Assembly (NCBI RefSeq): GCF_003675325.1
Contig: NZ_CP033073.1
Location: 3,348,001-3,412,000, forward strand
Direction of reading: 5' to 3'
DNA: 64,000 nucleotides
From: Streptomyces dangxiongensis
Lineage (GTDB): Bacteria; Actinomycetota; Actinomycetes; Streptomycetales; Streptomycetaceae
The position numbers and the translations under genes were made by a program. Below are positions 26,598-32,362 of the stretch, one piece after another. The notes beneath the pieces were generated by a model that saw only the letters and a program-made list of their open reading frames with translations, did not search any database and was not told where the DNA came from. Within the stretch, counting starts at the first letter, position 1. Every line of letters begins with the position of its first letter.

Positions 26598-26642
26598 CAG
26601 TCGCGGGGGGCACACCATCATCGCCGGGAGCGGACCGTTCTA

Positions 26643-26667
26643 GTGCCGCATCAGGCAACGTTCGCCC
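26643..26667 (+). repeat. Left terminal inverted repeat, IS630-type element
   Basis: 25 bases beginning GTGCCGCATCAGGCAACG, identical to the reverse complement of 29705-29729. It includes the last codons (NVA-stop) of the transposase remnant, as is usual at this end of IS630 elements. Sequence similarity stops abruptly beyond base 25. Confidence 0.9.
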
Positions 26668-27269
26668 TGTTCACGACCGCGCGGAGGCGTTCGTCGGCGG
26701 CGTGCTTGATTCACCAGATGATGTAGCGACTGATCACGCCACCCTGTTCGAATTGTCGAGCACGATCGCGATGCGGATCTCGGGCGGGTAGAGGCTGCGC
26801 AGGCAACGGCAGAACTCCAGGAACCTGGTCCGCTTCTTCCTCGGCTTGTTGTGGCCCCGTAGAGCTTGCCCTTGGCCAGGTCATAGGCGGCGAACAGGTG
26901 CCGGACCCCGTGCGGGCGGGTGTAGGTCGCCCGCCGGCGGGGCCTCGGCTCCCGGGCGGGGTCCTTGTGGCGGCCACCGCGTTCGGTCCACTGCCGCCCG
27001 GGGTGGGGCTGGAGGTTGAGCGGCCCGAACTCGTGCCTGCAGAAGACGACTTCGGGCTCGCCTCCCTCGGGTATGACCTCACCGTCGGCGATCGCGTAGA
27101 GGTGTTCGACCTGGGCCTTCTTGGCCGCGTCGTGTGAGGTCTTCCAGGTCTTTATGCATTGAAATCAGACGCCTTCCTCGCGGGGCAGGGCCCGAAGGCC
27201 CTCGTGGCTGATGTCGTCGAACGCCCCCTCGGCTGCCAAGAAGTCGGCCAGCTTGGCTGGGAATGACAT
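26651..27269 (-). pseudogene. IS630-family transposase remnant
   Basis: The minus strand encodes recognisable IS630 transposase pieces in broken frames: KLADFLAAEGAFDDISHEGL, KTWKTSHDAAKKAQVEHLYA, EFGPLNLQPHPGRQWTERGG, GVRHLFAAYDLAKGKLYG, then after a frameshift KPRKKRTRFLEFC, RSLYPPEIRIAIVLDN, and the terminus SRYIIW, KHAADERLRAVVNRANVA. Damage: a TGA after REEGV, a one-base shift near 26857, a deletion after VLDN that removes the segment with the third catalytic acid, another TGA after IIW, and CRHEFGP where active copies have an Asp. It cannot be functional. Confidence 0.85.
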
Positions 27270-27393
27270 TCCGCTCGGCCCGGACCAGGTCGCGGTGAGC
27301 ATCCGCCAACGCCGCGCGGGTGCGTCGAGGAGATCGCCGTCGCGCCCGCCGGCCGGGCGTGGAGGTGCCGCCGGTGATCACCCAGGGCTGGCG

Positions 27394-27417
27394 GATATAT
27401 TTCGTAGCTCGATATAT
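27394..27417 (+). promoter_or_regulatory. GATATAT repeats before padR
   Basis: Two GATATAT copies (27394-27400, 27411-27417) form an AT-rich dyad in otherwise very GC-rich DNA. The second is 10 bases from the padR start and also resembles a -10 element, so the mRNA may be leaderless. The symmetric ATATAT...ATATAT layout fits PadR autoregulation, an inference from position. Confidence 0.45.
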
Positions 27418-27426
27418 GCTCGATGC

Positions 27427-27768
27427 ATGACCAGACCGAATCCGCCCTTGACGGAACCGCAGTACTTCATCCTTGCTGCACTCATGGATGGTCCGTTGCA
27501 CGGTTACGGCATCATCAAGGCTGCCGAGCAGGCCACCGACGGGAGGCTCCGGATCGCTGTCGGCACTCTCTACGGCGCGTTGGAGCGGATGGAGCGGGCT
27601 GGGCTGGTGGCCGCCGGCCATGAGGAGATCGTGGACGGGCGGGCGCGGCGCTACTACCGGCTCACCGAGGACGGCACCCAGGCGCTCGGCCGGGAGGCGC
27701 TGCGGATGCAGCAGGCGGCGGCCGTCGTCATCGGACACTCGCGGGACGCCGGAGCGGCCCCGGCATGA
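27427..27768 (+). CDS. PadR-family transcriptional regulator
   Basis: 113 residues. The winged helix-turn-helix of PadR is clear: EPQYFILAALMDGPLHGYGI, ATDGRLRIAVGTLYGALERM and the wing ARRYYRLTEDGTQALGREAL. Members usually repress a neighbouring membrane protein or exporter gene. Here the stop overlaps the ATG of a membrane-protein gene (ATGA), an arrangement common for PadR-s families. It is a passenger of the IS630-type element. The start lacks a ribosome site, consistent with leaderless translation. Confidence 0.9.
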   Translation: MTRPNPPLTEPQYFILAALMDGPLHGYGIIKAAEQATDGRLRIAVGTLYGALERMERAGLVAAGHEEIVDGRARRYYRLTEDGTQALGREALRMQQAAAVVIGHSRDAGAAPA

Positions 27769-28721
27769 ATCGTCTGCTGCTTGCGGCCTATCCCGAGCCC
27801 TACCGTTCCCGGCAGGGAGAGGAGGTGCTGGCCTGCCTGTCCGAGGCGTATCCCGGCCGCTCCTGGCCCCCGCCGCGGGAAGTTGCCGCCCTGGTGCGCG
27901 CCGGGGTGCAGGCCCGCGCCCGTGCCGTCGTCGACGACACGGCCCGGCCGTGGTGGCTGGACGGCATCCATCTGGCCGCCCTGGCCCTCGCCGCGCTGGC
28001 GCTGGTTCCGTACATGCAGGATGTGTGGCACTGGGCACTGCACATCGACCCCGGACAGCACGCCATCGCCTTCCGCTTCTCCGGCTGGTACCCGTGGTCC
28101 GAAGGTCCTACGCGGATACGGCTGCTGCCCTACGGGCTGCTCCCGCTGGGCTGCCTGATCGCCCTGCTGCGCGGCAGACCGTGGATCGCGCTGCCGGCCG
28201 CGGCAGCCATGATCTGGGCCGGCGCCACGTCCCACGGCCGCACCCTCTTCGGCGACGAGGGCAAGGCGGGCCTGGGCTACTACGGTCTCGGCTCCCCGAT
28301 AACGGCCCGTGACCTGGTGCTGTCGGGGGCACTGTGCGCCGCGTGCGCCGTGCTGGCGCTCTGCCGTCCCAGCCGTCTGCGACGCCGCTCGTACCGCTGG
28401 CTGGCCCCCGTCGTGCTCGCCATGTACGTGGCCGGGGGCCTGCACATCATCTCCGTCAGTCCGGCTTTCCAGCGCGGTTTGTTCGTCCTCGAAGTCGCCG
28501 CGCTGATCGCCGCGTGGGTGGCGACGGCCGCCACCGGCGACCACCGGTGGCTGATCCCCGTCGCGGCGGTCGCGATCGTCCGCACGCAGGCGATCGTCGT
28601 CCGGCCGGACGCGTTCATGCAGTCCTTTCCGGACCTGGTCGTCCTCATCCTGCTGATCGCACCCCTCCCCGCCCTGGCGATCGCCGCCCAGCGCCGACAG
28701 GGGCAGGCACTCGCCGAATAG
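27765..28721 (+). CDS. Integral membrane protein, padR partner
   Basis: 318 residues. The cytoplasmic N-terminus begins RLLLAAYPEPYRSRQGEEVL, a segment common in PadR-linked actinobacterial membrane proteins. About seven or eight hydrophobic helices follow from residue 66. Several charged residues lie between helices, but no transporter or enzyme motif was recognised. Translation is coupled to padR by a four-base overlap. Function unknown; it is probably the target that the PadR protein controls. Confidence 0.8.
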   Translation: MNRLLLAAYPEPYRSRQGEEVLACLSEAYPGRSWPPPREVAALVRAGVQARARAVVDDTARPWWLDGIHLAALALAALALVPYMQDVWHWALHIDPGQHAIAFRFSGWYPWSEGPTRIRLLPYGLLPLGCLIALLRGRPWIALPAAAAMIWAGATSHGRTLFGDEGKAGLGYYGLGSPITARDLVLSGALCAACAVLALCRPSRLRRRSYRWLAPVVLAMYVAGGLHIISVSPAFQRGLFVLEVAALIAAWVATAATGDHRWLIPVAAVAIVRTQAIVVRPDAFMQSFPDLVVLILLIAPLPALAIAAQRRQGQALAE

Positions 28722-28814
28722 GAGCGGATCCCCGGTGGGCCGGCCGAGCCCGGCGGCCCACGTCGTGCCGGAAGACGTGCGTGACCGAACTCCCCCAACG
28801 GAAGAAACAGAGCG

Positions 28815-29732
28815 ATGACTCAGCACGATTCCCAGTCCCTGCCCGCGCACCGCCCGGCGGCATCGAGGCAGGCCCCCGAGGCCCCCGCCGACCCCAGCCC
28901 GTCGCGTACGACCCGGCCGTGGATGCCGGCTCTGCTGTACACCCTGGGGTTCCTGGCGGTCTACCTGCTCGCCATCTGCACCCCGTGGGGGCAACGAGCT
29001 GAGAACGCCCTGTTTCATCTCGGTAAACAGGGCGGCGAAGAAGCATGGATCTACCCCCTGTCAGGATCGGCCTACGGCTCGACGCCCCTGCCGCCGTTGG
29101 AATTGAGCGCCAAGCCCACCGTGATGGTGGGCCTGGCCGTCATCGTGATCCTCACCCTGGTGCGGCGGTGCTGGCGGCAGGGGTGCGCGGCGCTCGGGGT
29201 CGTCATTCTCACGACCGTGGGCAAGGAGGTGCTCAAATCGACCATCCTCCCCCGCCCCGATCTGGTGGGCGCGCCGGAGAATCTCCTTGATCAGGGTTTC
29301 CCCAGCGGCCACACGGCCATCCCCGCCGCGCTGACCCTCGCCGCCGTCCTCGTGGTTTCCCCTCACATCCGCCCCTACGTCGCCACGGTCGGTGTGCTGT
29401 GGCTCGCCTGCATCGCCGCCGCCAGCGCGACCATGGGCGGCCACCGGCCCAGCGAAGTGCTGGGAGCCACACTGTTGGCCTGTGCCTGTTACGGCCTCGC
29501 AACCTGGCTGCTGCCGCCAGCCGCCGCGCCAGGCGCCACGCGGAGCCCCCGTACGCTGCCCGTCATCACCCTGACGCTGGCACTGGCCGTCGCCCTCGTT
29601 TCCGGCGCACGGAACGACACCCTCACAAGGTCACTGGTCTCCGCGGCGACGGCCTTCATATGTGCGGCCCTGGTCTGGTACGCCGCAGTCGGGCGGCCCG
29701 CACCGGGCGAACGTTGCCTGATGCGGCACTAG
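28815..29732 (+). CDS. PAP2-family membrane phosphatase
   Basis: 305 residues, six or more helices. The three phosphatase motifs are KEVLKSTILPRPD (KxxxxxxRP), FPSGHT (PSGH) and SATMGGHRPSEVLGA. In the third, the usual Arg of SRxxxxxHxxxD is replaced and Asp is Glu, a pattern seen in some actinobacterial members. It likely dephosphorylates a lipid phosphate at the outer membrane face. The last residues (GERCLMRH) are encoded by the IS630-type end, so the original C-terminus has been replaced or trimmed. It follows the membrane gene by 93 bases. Confidence 0.85.
   Translation: MTQHDSQSLPAHRPAASRQAPEAPADPSPSRTTRPWMPALLYTLGFLAVYLLAICTPWGQRAENALFHLGKQGGEEAWIYPLSGSAYGSTPLPPLELSAKPTVMVGLAVIVILTLVRRCWRQGCAALGVVILTTVGKEVLKSTILPRPDLVGAPENLLDQGFPSGHTAIPAALTLAAVLVVSPHIRPYVATVGVLWLACIAAASATMGGHRPSEVLGATLLACACYGLATWLLPPAAAPGATRSPRTLPVITLTLALAVALVSGARNDTLTRSLVSAATAFICAALVWYAAVGRPAPGERCLMRH
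29705..29729 (-). repeat. Right terminal inverted repeat, IS630-type element
   Basis: Perfect inverted copy of 26643-26667, followed by TA. It supplies the last eight codons of the PAP2 gene (GERCLMRH and stop), so that open frame now ends inside the transposon end. Confidence 0.9.
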
Positions 29733-29769
29733 ACGAGTCATTCCGATGTGATCAGTGGTCGTAGGCGAT
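29733..29769 (+). repeat. Left inverted repeat of IS982-type element
   Basis: 37 bases starting ACGAGTCATTCCGATG. It matches the reverse complement of 31357-31392 with one gap and two substitutions. It contains the last codons of the transposase (IAYDH and stop). Confidence 0.85.
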
Positions 29770-30645
29770 GAGGGAGCGTGTGACCGGCTGGCCGGTCTTG
29801 TGGTTGTGCCAAATCGCGGCGGCCATCGCGAGGACGCGCTGGGCAACGCGGACGGCGACGCCTTCGAAGGTCCAGCCGCCGTGCTGTTCCAGGTCGAGCT
29901 GGCCCTTGAGGGTGTCATTGACCGACTCGATCAGCTGTCGCACTGATTTCAGGAGGCTCTCGCCCTTGCGTTTGTTCTCGCGCTTGAACGACGGCCGCAA
30001 CAACTCGGCACCCCGCAAGGCCAGATCGGCCTCGAACTCCTTGGAGGCGAAGCCCTTGTCGGAGATCACCAGCAGCCCCGGCCGGTCCGTGACCGTCTCC
30101 GGTTCGCGGTCGAGCATCGCGGTCAGTACCTCGCGTTCGTCGATCTTCGGGTTGGCAAGAGCCCACAGGATGGGCATCCCGGTCGGGGTGCATACCAGGA
30201 ACAGGCGCAGGCCCCAGAAGAACCGGCTGTGGCTGGCGCAGTACCCGTATCCGGCCCAGCCGGCCACGTCCGACCGCTTCACGGTCGGACGCGAGCGACC
30301 GCATTCCACCGGCGTGGAGTCGACGATCCAATGGTTGTCGAACCAGAAGTCCGTGTCGGCGGCCAGGAGCCGTATGGTCTTCTTGACCAGCGGCAACGCG
30401 GCCCTCAGCCGCTTGTTCCAGCCCGGCTGCTTGGGCACGTACGGGAACATCTCACCCAGGCGGGAGTCCACGAACCTCAGCCACCGCGACTCCGAAGTGA
30501 AGCCTAGCAGCGCCTGCGCGACGGCGAGGCAGACGAGCTCGGAGTCCGTCAGCTGCGGCGGTCGGCCCAGCCATCGGGTGCTTCCGATCTCGTCGTCGAT
30601 CTTCACGTACAGTGCGGTCAGCAGGGCGTCCAGGTTGTTCGTCAC
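29752..30645 (-). CDS. IS982-family transposase
   Basis: 297 residues, full length and uninterrupted. DDE-type features of IS982 are visible: WFDNHWIVDSTPVECGR (first Asp in VDSTPV), LLVISDKGFASKEFEADL (second Asp) and a later Glu in the helix LIESVNDTLKGQLDLEQHGG. Start GTG 30645; the stop lies inside the left inverted repeat. Apparently functional, so the element may still be mobile. Confidence 0.93.
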   Translation of the reverse strand: MTNNLDALLTALYVKIDDEIGSTRWLGRPPQLTDSELVCLAVAQALLGFTSESRWLRFVDSRLGEMFPYVPKQPGWNKRLRAALPLVKKTIRLLAADTDFWFDNHWIVDSTPVECGRSRPTVKRSDVAGWAGYGYCASHSRFFWGLRLFLVCTPTGMPILWALANPKIDEREVLTAMLDREPETVTDRPGLLVISDKGFASKEFEADLALRGAELLRPSFKRENKRKGESLLKSVRQLIESVNDTLKGQLDLEQHGGWTFEGVAVRVAQRVLAMAAAIWHNHKTGQPVTRSLIAYDH

Positions 30646-30760
30646 ACAACGATCTTGGATGCCCTGTCTGCGTTCCCGGACACACCGTCAGCATTCGAAT
30701 GTCGTAACGAGATCTGCACCCCAGTTCGGTCGGCGAGAGTATTCGTGACAGGGTGAACGA

Positions 30761-31330
30761 ATGGCGACGAACCGTGGGCACTCACCCGATCTCCACCCCA
30801 CCGGATTCAAACCGTGGTCGGACACCACCCCGGCCCACAGAGATCTCCTCGCGGCGAAAGCGCTCGTCTACGACCCCTGCGGGTTCACCTGCTCGCAGCC
30901 GGCCCCAGAAACCGAGAGTGCCGCATACGCCGCCCACGCCTTCATCCTTGACGGACTCGCCATCCGATTCCGCGCAGCCAAGACGACCCCGACCAAGGTC
31001 GGCCAGTTCGTCACCGTATGGAAGAGGTCCCCGGGCAAGCCCATCCAGCCTTTCGACGCCACCGACCCCGTCGACCTCTTCGTCGTCAGCACCCGCGACC
31101 ATCATCACTTCGGCCAGTTCGTCTTTCCCATGGACGCGCTCTGCCAACACGGTGTCGCATCAGCAGACGGCTCCGGTGGGAAACGAGCCTTCCGCGTCTA
31201 CCCGCCCTGGGTGACCACCACCAACCGCCAAGCCGGCGCTGCGCAGGCGTGGCAGCTGGACTACTTCCTACACCTGCCCCAGGACCGACCCATCGATTCC
31301 GCCCGCGCCCAAAAGCTGTACCACCCATAG
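30761..31330 (+). CDS. MepB-like protein, transposon passenger
   Basis: 189 residues similar to the MepB family, named after the third gene of the Staphylococcus aureus mepRAB multidrug operon; its own biochemical role is unknown. Family blocks: AAHAFILDGLAIRFRAAKTT, PTKVGQFVTVWKRSPGKPI, DPVDLFVVSTRDHHHFGQFV and FRVYPPWVTTTNRQAGAAQA. No signal peptide or membrane helix; cytoplasmic. ATG 30761 with an AGGGTGAA site; divergent from the transposase by 115 bases. No mepA efflux or mepR gene is nearby. Confidence 0.85.
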   Translation: MATNRGHSPDLHPTGFKPWSDTTPAHRDLLAAKALVYDPCGFTCSQPAPETESAAYAAHAFILDGLAIRFRAAKTTPTKVGQFVTVWKRSPGKPIQPFDATDPVDLFVVSTRDHHHFGQFVFPMDALCQHGVASADGSGGKRAFRVYPPWVTTTNRQAGAAQAWQLDYFLHLPQDRPIDSARAQKLYHP

Positions 31331-31356
31331 GTCGGACGACCAGCCGGGGTGACACG

Positions 31357-31392
31357 ATCGCCTACGACCTCTGATCATTCGGAATGACTCGT
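31357..31392 (-). repeat. Right inverted repeat of IS982-type element
   Basis: 36-base inverted partner of 29733-29769. Read outward it still spells IAYDL-stop, and a further stretch (CAGCCGG...GACACG, about 31341-31356) resembles the adjoining transposase coding sequence. This end is therefore a copy of the transposase 3' end. Confidence 0.85.
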
Positions 31393-32043
31393 CTAGGAGT
31401 CGGCCGGCGGCGGAGCCCAGGGGTGGCCCCGCATCAGGTTGGACAGGCCCGCCCAGGCGAAGTTCATCAGGGTCGCCGCCGACTGCCGCGCGGTCACCCC
31501 GGGTGTGGCGTTCGCCCACGCGGCGAGCGACTCCGCCGCACCGACCAGCGCTTCCGCGATCCCGGCCACCTCCCGCTCGGGCAGGTCCGGATCCCGGTGC
31601 GCCTCCCGCGCCGCGACCACGACCAGCCGGGTCACGAACGCGACGATCTCCGCGCGCATCGCGGCGACCTCGGCCGCGAAGGGCTCACCGTGCGTCCGGG
31701 CCTGCAGGTGCAGCACGGACCAGCCGTCGGGATGCTCGGCGGTGTGCGCGAAGAACGCCCGCAGCCCGTCCCAGAGCTGCCGGTCGGCGGGCAGGTCCGG
31801 CCGGACCCCCGCGCGGACGGCCGCCGTGAGCGCGGCGGCCTCACGGCGGATGCAGGCGGTGAAGAGGCATTCCTTCGACGTCAGGTACAGATAGACCAAC
31901 GGCTTGGACACGCCCGCGAGTTCGGCGATCTCGTCCATCGAGGCGGCCATGTAGCCGCGTTGGCCGAAGATCCGCACGGCCGCGTCGAGCATCTGCTGCT
32001 CCCGCACCGCCCTCGGCATCCGTTTGGTCTTGACGCCACCCAT
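31393..32043 (-). CDS. TetR-family transcriptional regulator
   Basis: 216 residues. The N-terminal helix-turn-helix reads MLDAAVRIFGQRGYMAASMD, then EIAELAGVSKPLVYLYLTSK; the ligand domain is all-helical. Start ATG 32043; a TAGGCT hexamer 9 bases upstream suggests a leaderless transcript. Its stop codon coincides with the CTAG at the island's right boundary, so it was adjacent to the acyl-CoA-ligase region before insertion. It could act on the palindromes at 26406-26437, an inference. Confidence 0.9.
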   Translation of the reverse strand: MGGVKTKRMPRAVREQQMLDAAVRIFGQRGYMAASMDEIAELAGVSKPLVYLYLTSKECLFTACIRREAAALTAAVRAGVRPDLPADRQLWDGLRAFFAHTAEHPDGWSVLHLQARTHGEPFAAEVAAMRAEIVAFVTRLVVVAAREAHRDPDLPEREVAGIAEALVGAAESLAAWANATPGVTARQSAATLMNFAWAGLSNLMRGHPWAPPPADS

Positions 32044-32053
32044 GAGGGCCAGC

Positions 32054-32362
32054 CTAGTTGGGCGCGGTGGCCCCGCCCTGCGTCCGGGACGCGTCGTCGG
32101 CCAGATCCTCCTGGCTGCGGTTGGCATCCAGGTTGGCCTTCATCCGGTCGACCTTGTGCACGATCTGCACCGAGGCCCGCTCCCGCTCCTTGCGCAGCAC
32201 GACCCAGCTAACCGGTGCGGAGACGACGAGGGCGAGCAGCAGGACCCACAGGACGTTGGAGTCGCCGAAGCCGCGCGGGAAGATGCCCGAGTAGACGGCA
32301 CCCCAGACGACAAGGAGGCAGCCCGCGAAGATACCGAGGCGCATCAGCGTGTAGCGGAGCAT
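32054..32362 (-). CDS. DUF4229 membrane protein
   Basis: 102 residues. Two hydrophobic helices (RLGIFAGCLLVVWGAVYSGI and VLWVLLLALVVSAPVSWVVL) flank the short PRGFGDSN loop. A charged C-terminus (RKERERASVQIVHKVDRMKA) follows, the pattern of the actinobacterial DUF4229 family. Function unknown. Start ATG 32362; tetR follows it closely on the same strand but is separated by its own promoter-like element. Confidence 0.82.
   Translation of the reverse strand: MLRYTLMRLGIFAGCLLVVWGAVYSGIFPRGFGDSNVLWVLLLALVVSAPVSWVVLRKERERASVQIVHKVDRMKANLDANRSQEDLADDASRTQGGATAPN

Follow-up and report, generated by a model that had tools for sequence, protein, structure and literature searches.

The stretch of Streptomyces dangxiongensis DNA analysed here (64,000 nucleotides of contig NZ_CP033073.1, hereafter the window) contains, at positions 29733-31392, a 1660 bp insertion sequence (IS) of the IS982 family that carries a mepB-like gene alongside its transposase and has a copy of CTAG on either side. 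The left CTAG (29729..29732), which is also the right-edge CTAG of a neighbouring IS630-type element, is followed by the left terminal inverted repeat (29733..29769, plus strand), the 3'-side end of the transposase gene. The transposase itself is an intact open reading frame (ORF) of 297 residues on the minus strand (29752..30645), identified by its match to the NCBIfam IS982 model NF033520 (161.8 bits, cut-off 130). Upstream of it lie a remnant of the ordinary IS right end, on the 5' side of the transposase gene (30646..30705, plus strand), and a spacer with the mepB upstream region (30706..30760, plus strand). The passenger gene (30761..31330, plus strand) is divergent from the transposase and encodes 189 residues matching PF08877 (155.4 bits, cut-off 27). 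The unit closes with an outer right end (31331..31392, minus strand), a shortened inverted copy of the transposase 3' end that measures about 80 bp in relatives, and with the right CTAG (31393..31396), which provides the TAG stop codon of a neighbouring TetR gene (31393-32127, minus strand). According to Pfam, the genes immediately outside the element are PAP2 and TetR.

The two end arms match at 18 of 18 positions in a block that includes both CTAGs (29729-29746/31379-31396) and at 20 of 21 in a second block, offset by one base from the first (29749-29769/31357-31377). The sequence ACGAGTCATTCCGA is present at either terminus, so that the inverted repeats start 5'-AC, and the 4-bp direct repeat lies inside the 2-10 bp range of the family. 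CTAG is scarce in the window, with 14 occurrences against 167 expected from base composition. The original prediction of an IS982-type element with inverted repeats, a CTAG duplication, an intact transposase and a mepB-like passenger is thus borne out by the ends and by both profile matches.

Ordinary copies of this IS are found on Streptomyces plasmids (L147-L150; 976, 976, 963 and 963 bp, respectively) with about 90% identity to the window IS. All four have CTAG at both ends; since L149 and L150 have the same flanks, they represent three sites. The distance from the transposase start upstream to their right end (…GCATTCGGAATGACTCGT-CTAG) is 50-63 bp. In the window the region upstream of the transposase matches the ordinary IS through …GCATTCGAATGTCGT-AACG, the right end being kept with small deletions near its terminus and with no CTAG behind it. 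It had been proposed that a usual IS982 right end between transposase and mepB would speak against mepB as a passenger; such an end is present at 30646-30705, but in decayed form, and the passenger reading stands, the unit being composed of a complete ordinary IS, mepB and a further outer end in inverted orientation. Among 28 inner ends examined (the window, 15 other passenger elements described below and 12 further mepB loci), none retains an intact terminus with CTAG behind it. Those of L248 (two mismatches, then CTGT), L120 and L258 are the best kept; elsewhere only the transposase-proximal part survives.

Homologues of MepB were sought in 394 Streptomycetaceae genomes, 89 of which gave a match, and at a stricter limit in 392 genomes of the genus, with a match in 23; a scan of genome contigs yielded 129 relatives, of which the best 80 were retained. 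The best-scoring loci from these searches make up 105 distinct mepB loci. IS pieces, defined as matches to the ordinary IS at E-values up to 1e-3, adjoin mepB in 22 of them, window included, and the identical test found none in 42 control loci, which were those fetched for flank comparisons and not a random sample. Transposase-mepB units recur in other genomes, mostly with a decayed transposase: it is full-length in only two of the 22, the window and L040. Their hosts include Streptomyces, Kitasatospora, Streptantibioticus, Planomonospora (L051, L054) and Planobispora (L059). The proposal that mobility explains the scattered distribution of mepB is supported in part, by this host range and by the 13 different right flanks described below, but IS pieces accompany mepB in only the stated fraction of the best-scoring loci, so that mobility does not account for all of the scatter.

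The borders of these units recur. Downstream of mepB, an inverted fragment running from IS position 1-3 to 74-80 is seen in 12 of 15 loci that match the IS there (it ends at IS position 37 in the window and L037, and spans 23-81 in L015). That the right end repeats the transposase 3' end in inverted orientation is therefore correct, the copy being short in the window (IS 1-37) and clear in relatives (IS 1-80), and both outer ends of the mepB elements are the same, transposase 3'-side, IS end, inverted to each other. Upstream of mepB, the IS extends to position 964-975 of 976 in 14 of the 21 loci with an upstream match. These recurring left and right junctions argue for one ancestral capture of mepB, and more strongly than do the trees. 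In the MepB tree the IS-linked rows cluster, with eight label changes among 24 labelled rows (two of which have the right end alone) against a shuffled mean of 22; the IS tree, with nine mepB-linked rows and 35 others, shows two changes, and a single clade is not rejected (p 0.448).

Both ends can be read in five mepB elements, where the bordering tetranucleotides are CTAG/CTAG (window, L039, L040), CTGG/CTGG (L043) and CCAG/CTAG (L050). The presence of CTGG on both sides of L043 indicates a copied target, since an inverted repeat would give CCAG opposite. The right flanks that follow mepB right ends are of 13 different kinds, starting with CTAG in eight, CCAG in three and CTGG in two, and among them L046 and L172 represent one common insertion site. 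L039 and L040 are 95-97% identical over the element, while their right surroundings differ. An uninterrupted counterpart of the L050 site exists in a related genome (G398, locus L212), where a single CTAG without any element terminates an open frame of 400 codons. For L043, no clean empty site emerged: three of the four relatives listed have CTAG at this position but in different surroundings. At the very CTAG used by L050, another locus (L211:2303-3130) has an element whose ends are similar and whose ORF looks, by eye, like a GNAT acetyltransferase; two kinds of passenger-bearing IS thus use the same site.

The sequences show that the ends match and the target is duplicated, that the unit occurs at unrelated sites and its capture junctions recur, that a relative has an empty counterpart site and that the inner end is decayed. 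On these grounds we consider it very probable that the feature is a passenger-carrying, or transporter-type, IS982 element, in which an IS with a decayed right end, mepB and an inverted outer end move as a unit. An ordinary CTAG-targeting IS982 of 963-976 bp would lose the function of its own right end through decay, while an inverted fragment of the other end of the same IS, sitting past mepB, would serve as the new outer end. The transposase would then pair the left end solely with this new outer end, and the IS and mepB would transpose as a single unit, duplicating CTAG on insertion. The decayed inner end is presumably inactive, and the window copy may still be able to move. The inverted end could derive from a second, inverted IS copy trimmed to its end or from a one-step rearrangement.

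A different gene in the position of mepB, seen at L118 and L119, prompted a survey of related elements covering 117 transposase loci: 30 and 80 from the listed matches, six plasmid loci and the second copy of the window's genome. The survey was drawn among the matches listed. The 80 were taken where the transposase is complete or almost so, to the exclusion of partial matches and of at least eight almost complete ones, which include those at contig starts as well as, for example, G036:C55 and three of G356. Counts refer to loci and not to independent events, several loci coming from one genome. A right end was accepted with up to two mismatches in 16 bases, or up to four when CTAG followed, so that the right CTAG is partly a criterion; shuffled regions average 0-0.5 hits, even without the CTAG rule. 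Passenger ORFs were chosen by length and third-position GC content. Both ends were present in 96 of the 117 loci, 15 having no recognisable left end and six no right end (among these L122, with a weak distant match only). Most of the 96 are ordinary (76), and in the other 20 the right end lies at least 575 bp past the transposase start, with CTAG on both sides in every case; only L143 and L240 among these required the CTAG rule. Passenger genes are enclosed in 19 of the 20.

The cargo is of 16 kinds, of which mepB is one, and the original reading of mepB as the passenger is too narrow in this respect. Besides MepB in the window, the cargo comprises a 156-residue protein without a Pfam match (L118, L119 and L152, the last two having the same sequence), SnoaL-like proteins (L120, L123), an SgcJ/EcaC-type protein (L002), an alpha/beta hydrolase (L143, L240), NUDIX (L242), mycothiol-S-transferase/DinB (L244), GNAT (L246), hexapeptide transferase (L248) and MerR (L258) proteins, an ABATE/CGNR protein together with a second gene (L276), and proteins without a clear family (L139, L263, L274, L296). 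L132 was not counted among the passenger elements, since the additional DNA encodes a transposase, which we take to be of IS5 type, and its right end fits the ordinary right end (local score 48), as in a nested insertion. The window's genome yielded a single further IS982 copy, the SgcJ/EcaC-type element (L002:1505-3019, at G000:C2:7940636), with 68% DNA identity over the IS part, ends matching at 25 of 25 bases and CTAG on both sides. Its two outer ends follow the same-end pattern of the mepB elements, as do, less clearly, those of L118 and L248. The right end of L120 resembles instead the other, ordinary right, end of a related IS (local score 39), and in nine of the 20 elements with a distant right end, L120 included, the ends match over just 15-17 bp.

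Movement of passenger units as a whole is best supported by two pairs. L143 and L240 occupy two places of a single genome, with unrelated flanks and 99.95% identity over 1954 bp; L118 and L119 come from two genomes, with different flanks and 99.2% identity over 1931 bp. In both pairs the match ends within about five bases of the CTAGs. Transposition of passenger and transposase as one unit is seen for the sister elements, is indicated by the recurring borders for the mepB elements and may hold for the window copy itself. On balance we favour the broader view that the CTAG-targeting IS982 elements of Streptomycetaceae are a general single-gene shuttle, whose end on the transposase 5' side would repeatedly decay and be replaced by a new end past a neighbouring gene, converting the IS into a one- or two-gene transposon. 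In a class-wide sample of 296 genomes, 18 gave a match, 14 of these outside the family. The 24 loci outside the family comprise 18 ordinary copies, one slightly long one (L303, 1098 bp), three without a right end and two without a left end. The passenger habit may therefore be concentrated in Streptomycetaceae, although the mepB form does occur in Planomonospora and Planobispora, at loci with just 1.5 kb of flank.

The surveyed IS982 copies also reveal where such elements land. Among their 90 distinct right flanks starting with CTAG, the TAG ends a convergent open frame (at least 80 codons, third-position GC of at least 0.8) in 27, compared with six and five in the other two frames. The stop codons of convergent genes are thus a common landing place for these elements.

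Several observations weigh against a mobile unit of the kind proposed. For the window no exact empty counterpart came to light, its relatives being too divergent between the two flanking genes and another element lying directly to the left; for the site of L168/L039, the left flank was matched in part only; and the left border of L040 coincides with a contig edge. The inner end of the window is not grossly lost, aligning to its final base with small gaps, so that its inactivity is a matter of interpretation. The trees are compatible with a single capture but would not by themselves demonstrate it. Three genomes have two MepB matches, but these are pieces and never two full copies, and in its own genome the transposase-mepB unit occurs once. 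With so few full-length transposases, present activity of the mepB elements is doubtful. Decayed transposases and an inner end still recognisable in the window would also suit a chance adjacency, in which an IS982 copy and an IS end fragment merely happen to flank a resident mepB and the block never moved as a unit. This is very improbable: it is largely refuted by the identical left and right junctions at unrelated sites, bordered by CTAG or a variant, and is further opposed by the lack of IS pieces in the control loci and by the existence of an empty site for L050.

Two other accounts are closer to the passenger-carrying element favoured here. One, a version of it, is that two inverted full IS982 copies once flanked mepB as a composite transposon and the right one was deleted down to its outer end. 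The right fragment, an inverted end from the transposase 3' side, is what the outer end of an inverted second copy would look like, and the right end of L120 suggests that end fragments of second copies do occur. Against this, in the 15 loci where IS sequence follows mepB its length never exceeds about 80 bp, and the 15-17 bp matches of nine sister elements are too short to trace to a second copy. Trimming of a second inverted copy to its end is a candidate explanation of the mepB case, to which we give nearly even chances. The other account, compatible with the favoured one, is that the unit moved in the past and is now a relic, with mepB retained like any host gene inside a decaying IS; we hold this to be possible, if rather tentatively. 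The single copy and the rarity of full-length transposases agree with it, as do MepB ORFs that are free of stop codons in 22 of 22 IS-linked loci, a count biased by the discovery of these loci through MepB similarity, and a median ratio of non-synonymous to synonymous substitution rates (dN/dS) of 0.355 over 226 usable pairs. On the other hand, the window transposase is intact and both outer ends match well, L040 is full-length too, and in the window's close pair (L007-L037) dN/dS is 0.71 at a dS of 0.08, so that selection on mepB is not evident in the window's sub-lineage.

According to a 2020 review, members of the IS982 family measure 845-1282 bp (its Table 1) and have a single transposase gene enclosed by the repeats; 57 of the 69 members listed have AC ends, and their direct repeats span 2-10 bp. 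The terms 'passenger' and 'MepB' are absent from its main text (PMC7335449). The present element resembles that family, as described there, in its transposase model, its 5'-AC end, its short inverted repeats and its 4-bp direct repeat, and differs in its length of 1660 bp, outside the range of passenger-free members, and in its unrelated passenger (PMC7335449). Transporter IS (tIS) with an extra ORF are known from other families (PMC10132070, PMC9330008), including ISKpn21, ISKpn65 and ISRel10 of the IS1202 family (PMC10132070). Like these, the window element is a single IS with an extra ORF within its ends, here mepB, a gene unrelated to transposition; unlike the IS1202-family tIS as described there, it has a transposase of a different family, and one subfamily here has 16 passengers and, in several cases, an inner-end remnant (PMC10132070). 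With a composite transposon it shares outer ends that are inverted copies of one IS end, but in place of two full-length copies around the cargo it has just one, with an end fragment opposite at the right. By transposase and ends, then, the element is assigned to IS982 and by predicted content to the transporter type, a variant within known kinds. We recognised no description of IS982 elements with passenger genes in the open-access literature; ISfinder may already contain such elements.

Streptomyces genomes vary widely in small accessory genes, whose movement is usually ascribed to plasmids and conjugative elements. If the interpretation is correct, IS982 shuttles that carry one gene and insert at a nearly constant 4-bp target would account for part of the scatter of such genes and would represent an uncharted path for their spread among Streptomyces. 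The arrangement offers a searchable signature (CTAG, a 16-bp end, transposase, one gene, an end, CTAG), and the series of live inner end, decayed inner end and new outer end would be a natural one in which to study the passage from an IS to a gene-carrying transposon.

With phmmer, the window MepB matches PDB entry 4lqe (E 2.2e-20), with 31% identity over 118 aligned residues. We take this structure to be the MepB of the mepRAB operon of Staphylococcus aureus; a paper on it was not found in the open-access literature. The window protein has the same family (PF08877) and the same predicted fold as that MepB, but the element holds transposase and mepB alone, with neither mepR (MarR) nor mepA (MATE) beside mepB. 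The link to drug-response islands drawn in the original prediction accordingly receives no support: no efflux or MarR gene is present in the element and nothing tied this MepB to drugs. Here MepB is encoded within a mobile element, remote from the drug-efflux operon to which it owes its name. The fold may, with modest confidence, resemble that of PD-(D/E)XK nucleases. Twelve diverse MepBs have invariant R71, K74, K79, K141 and R145, no invariant acidic residue and a nearly invariant E50. Searches for MepB as a catalogued defence protein in PADLOC (E-values up to 1) and as a phage protein in PHROGs (up to 0.1) gave no matches, which does not exclude either role.

Some further features of mepB and its surroundings were observed. 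The roughly 20 bases 5' of the gene (GTGACAGGGTGNACGA; window 30740-30760) are similar in many mepB copies, with and without IS, and are perhaps a promoter or operator. In L040 (1594-1691) and relatives the mepB frame appears to continue into the inverted IS fragment, giving longer MepB C-termini. MepB-family genes occur on 90 plasmid records, most frequently of Lactococcus (32), Staphylococcus (14), Vibrio (13) and Priestia (9), and none of 67 matching PLSDB records covers 80% of the whole element. Finally, the neighbouring element to the left (26640-29732) has ends GTGCCGCATCAGGCAACGTTCGCCC and is likewise bounded by CTAG, the mepB element adjoining it at a common CTAG. Its IS630 name is taken from annotated plasmid matches. 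It contains a decayed IS630 transposase, a PadR regulator, a protein without a Pfam match and the PAP2 gene, the stop codon of which falls in its right CTAG.

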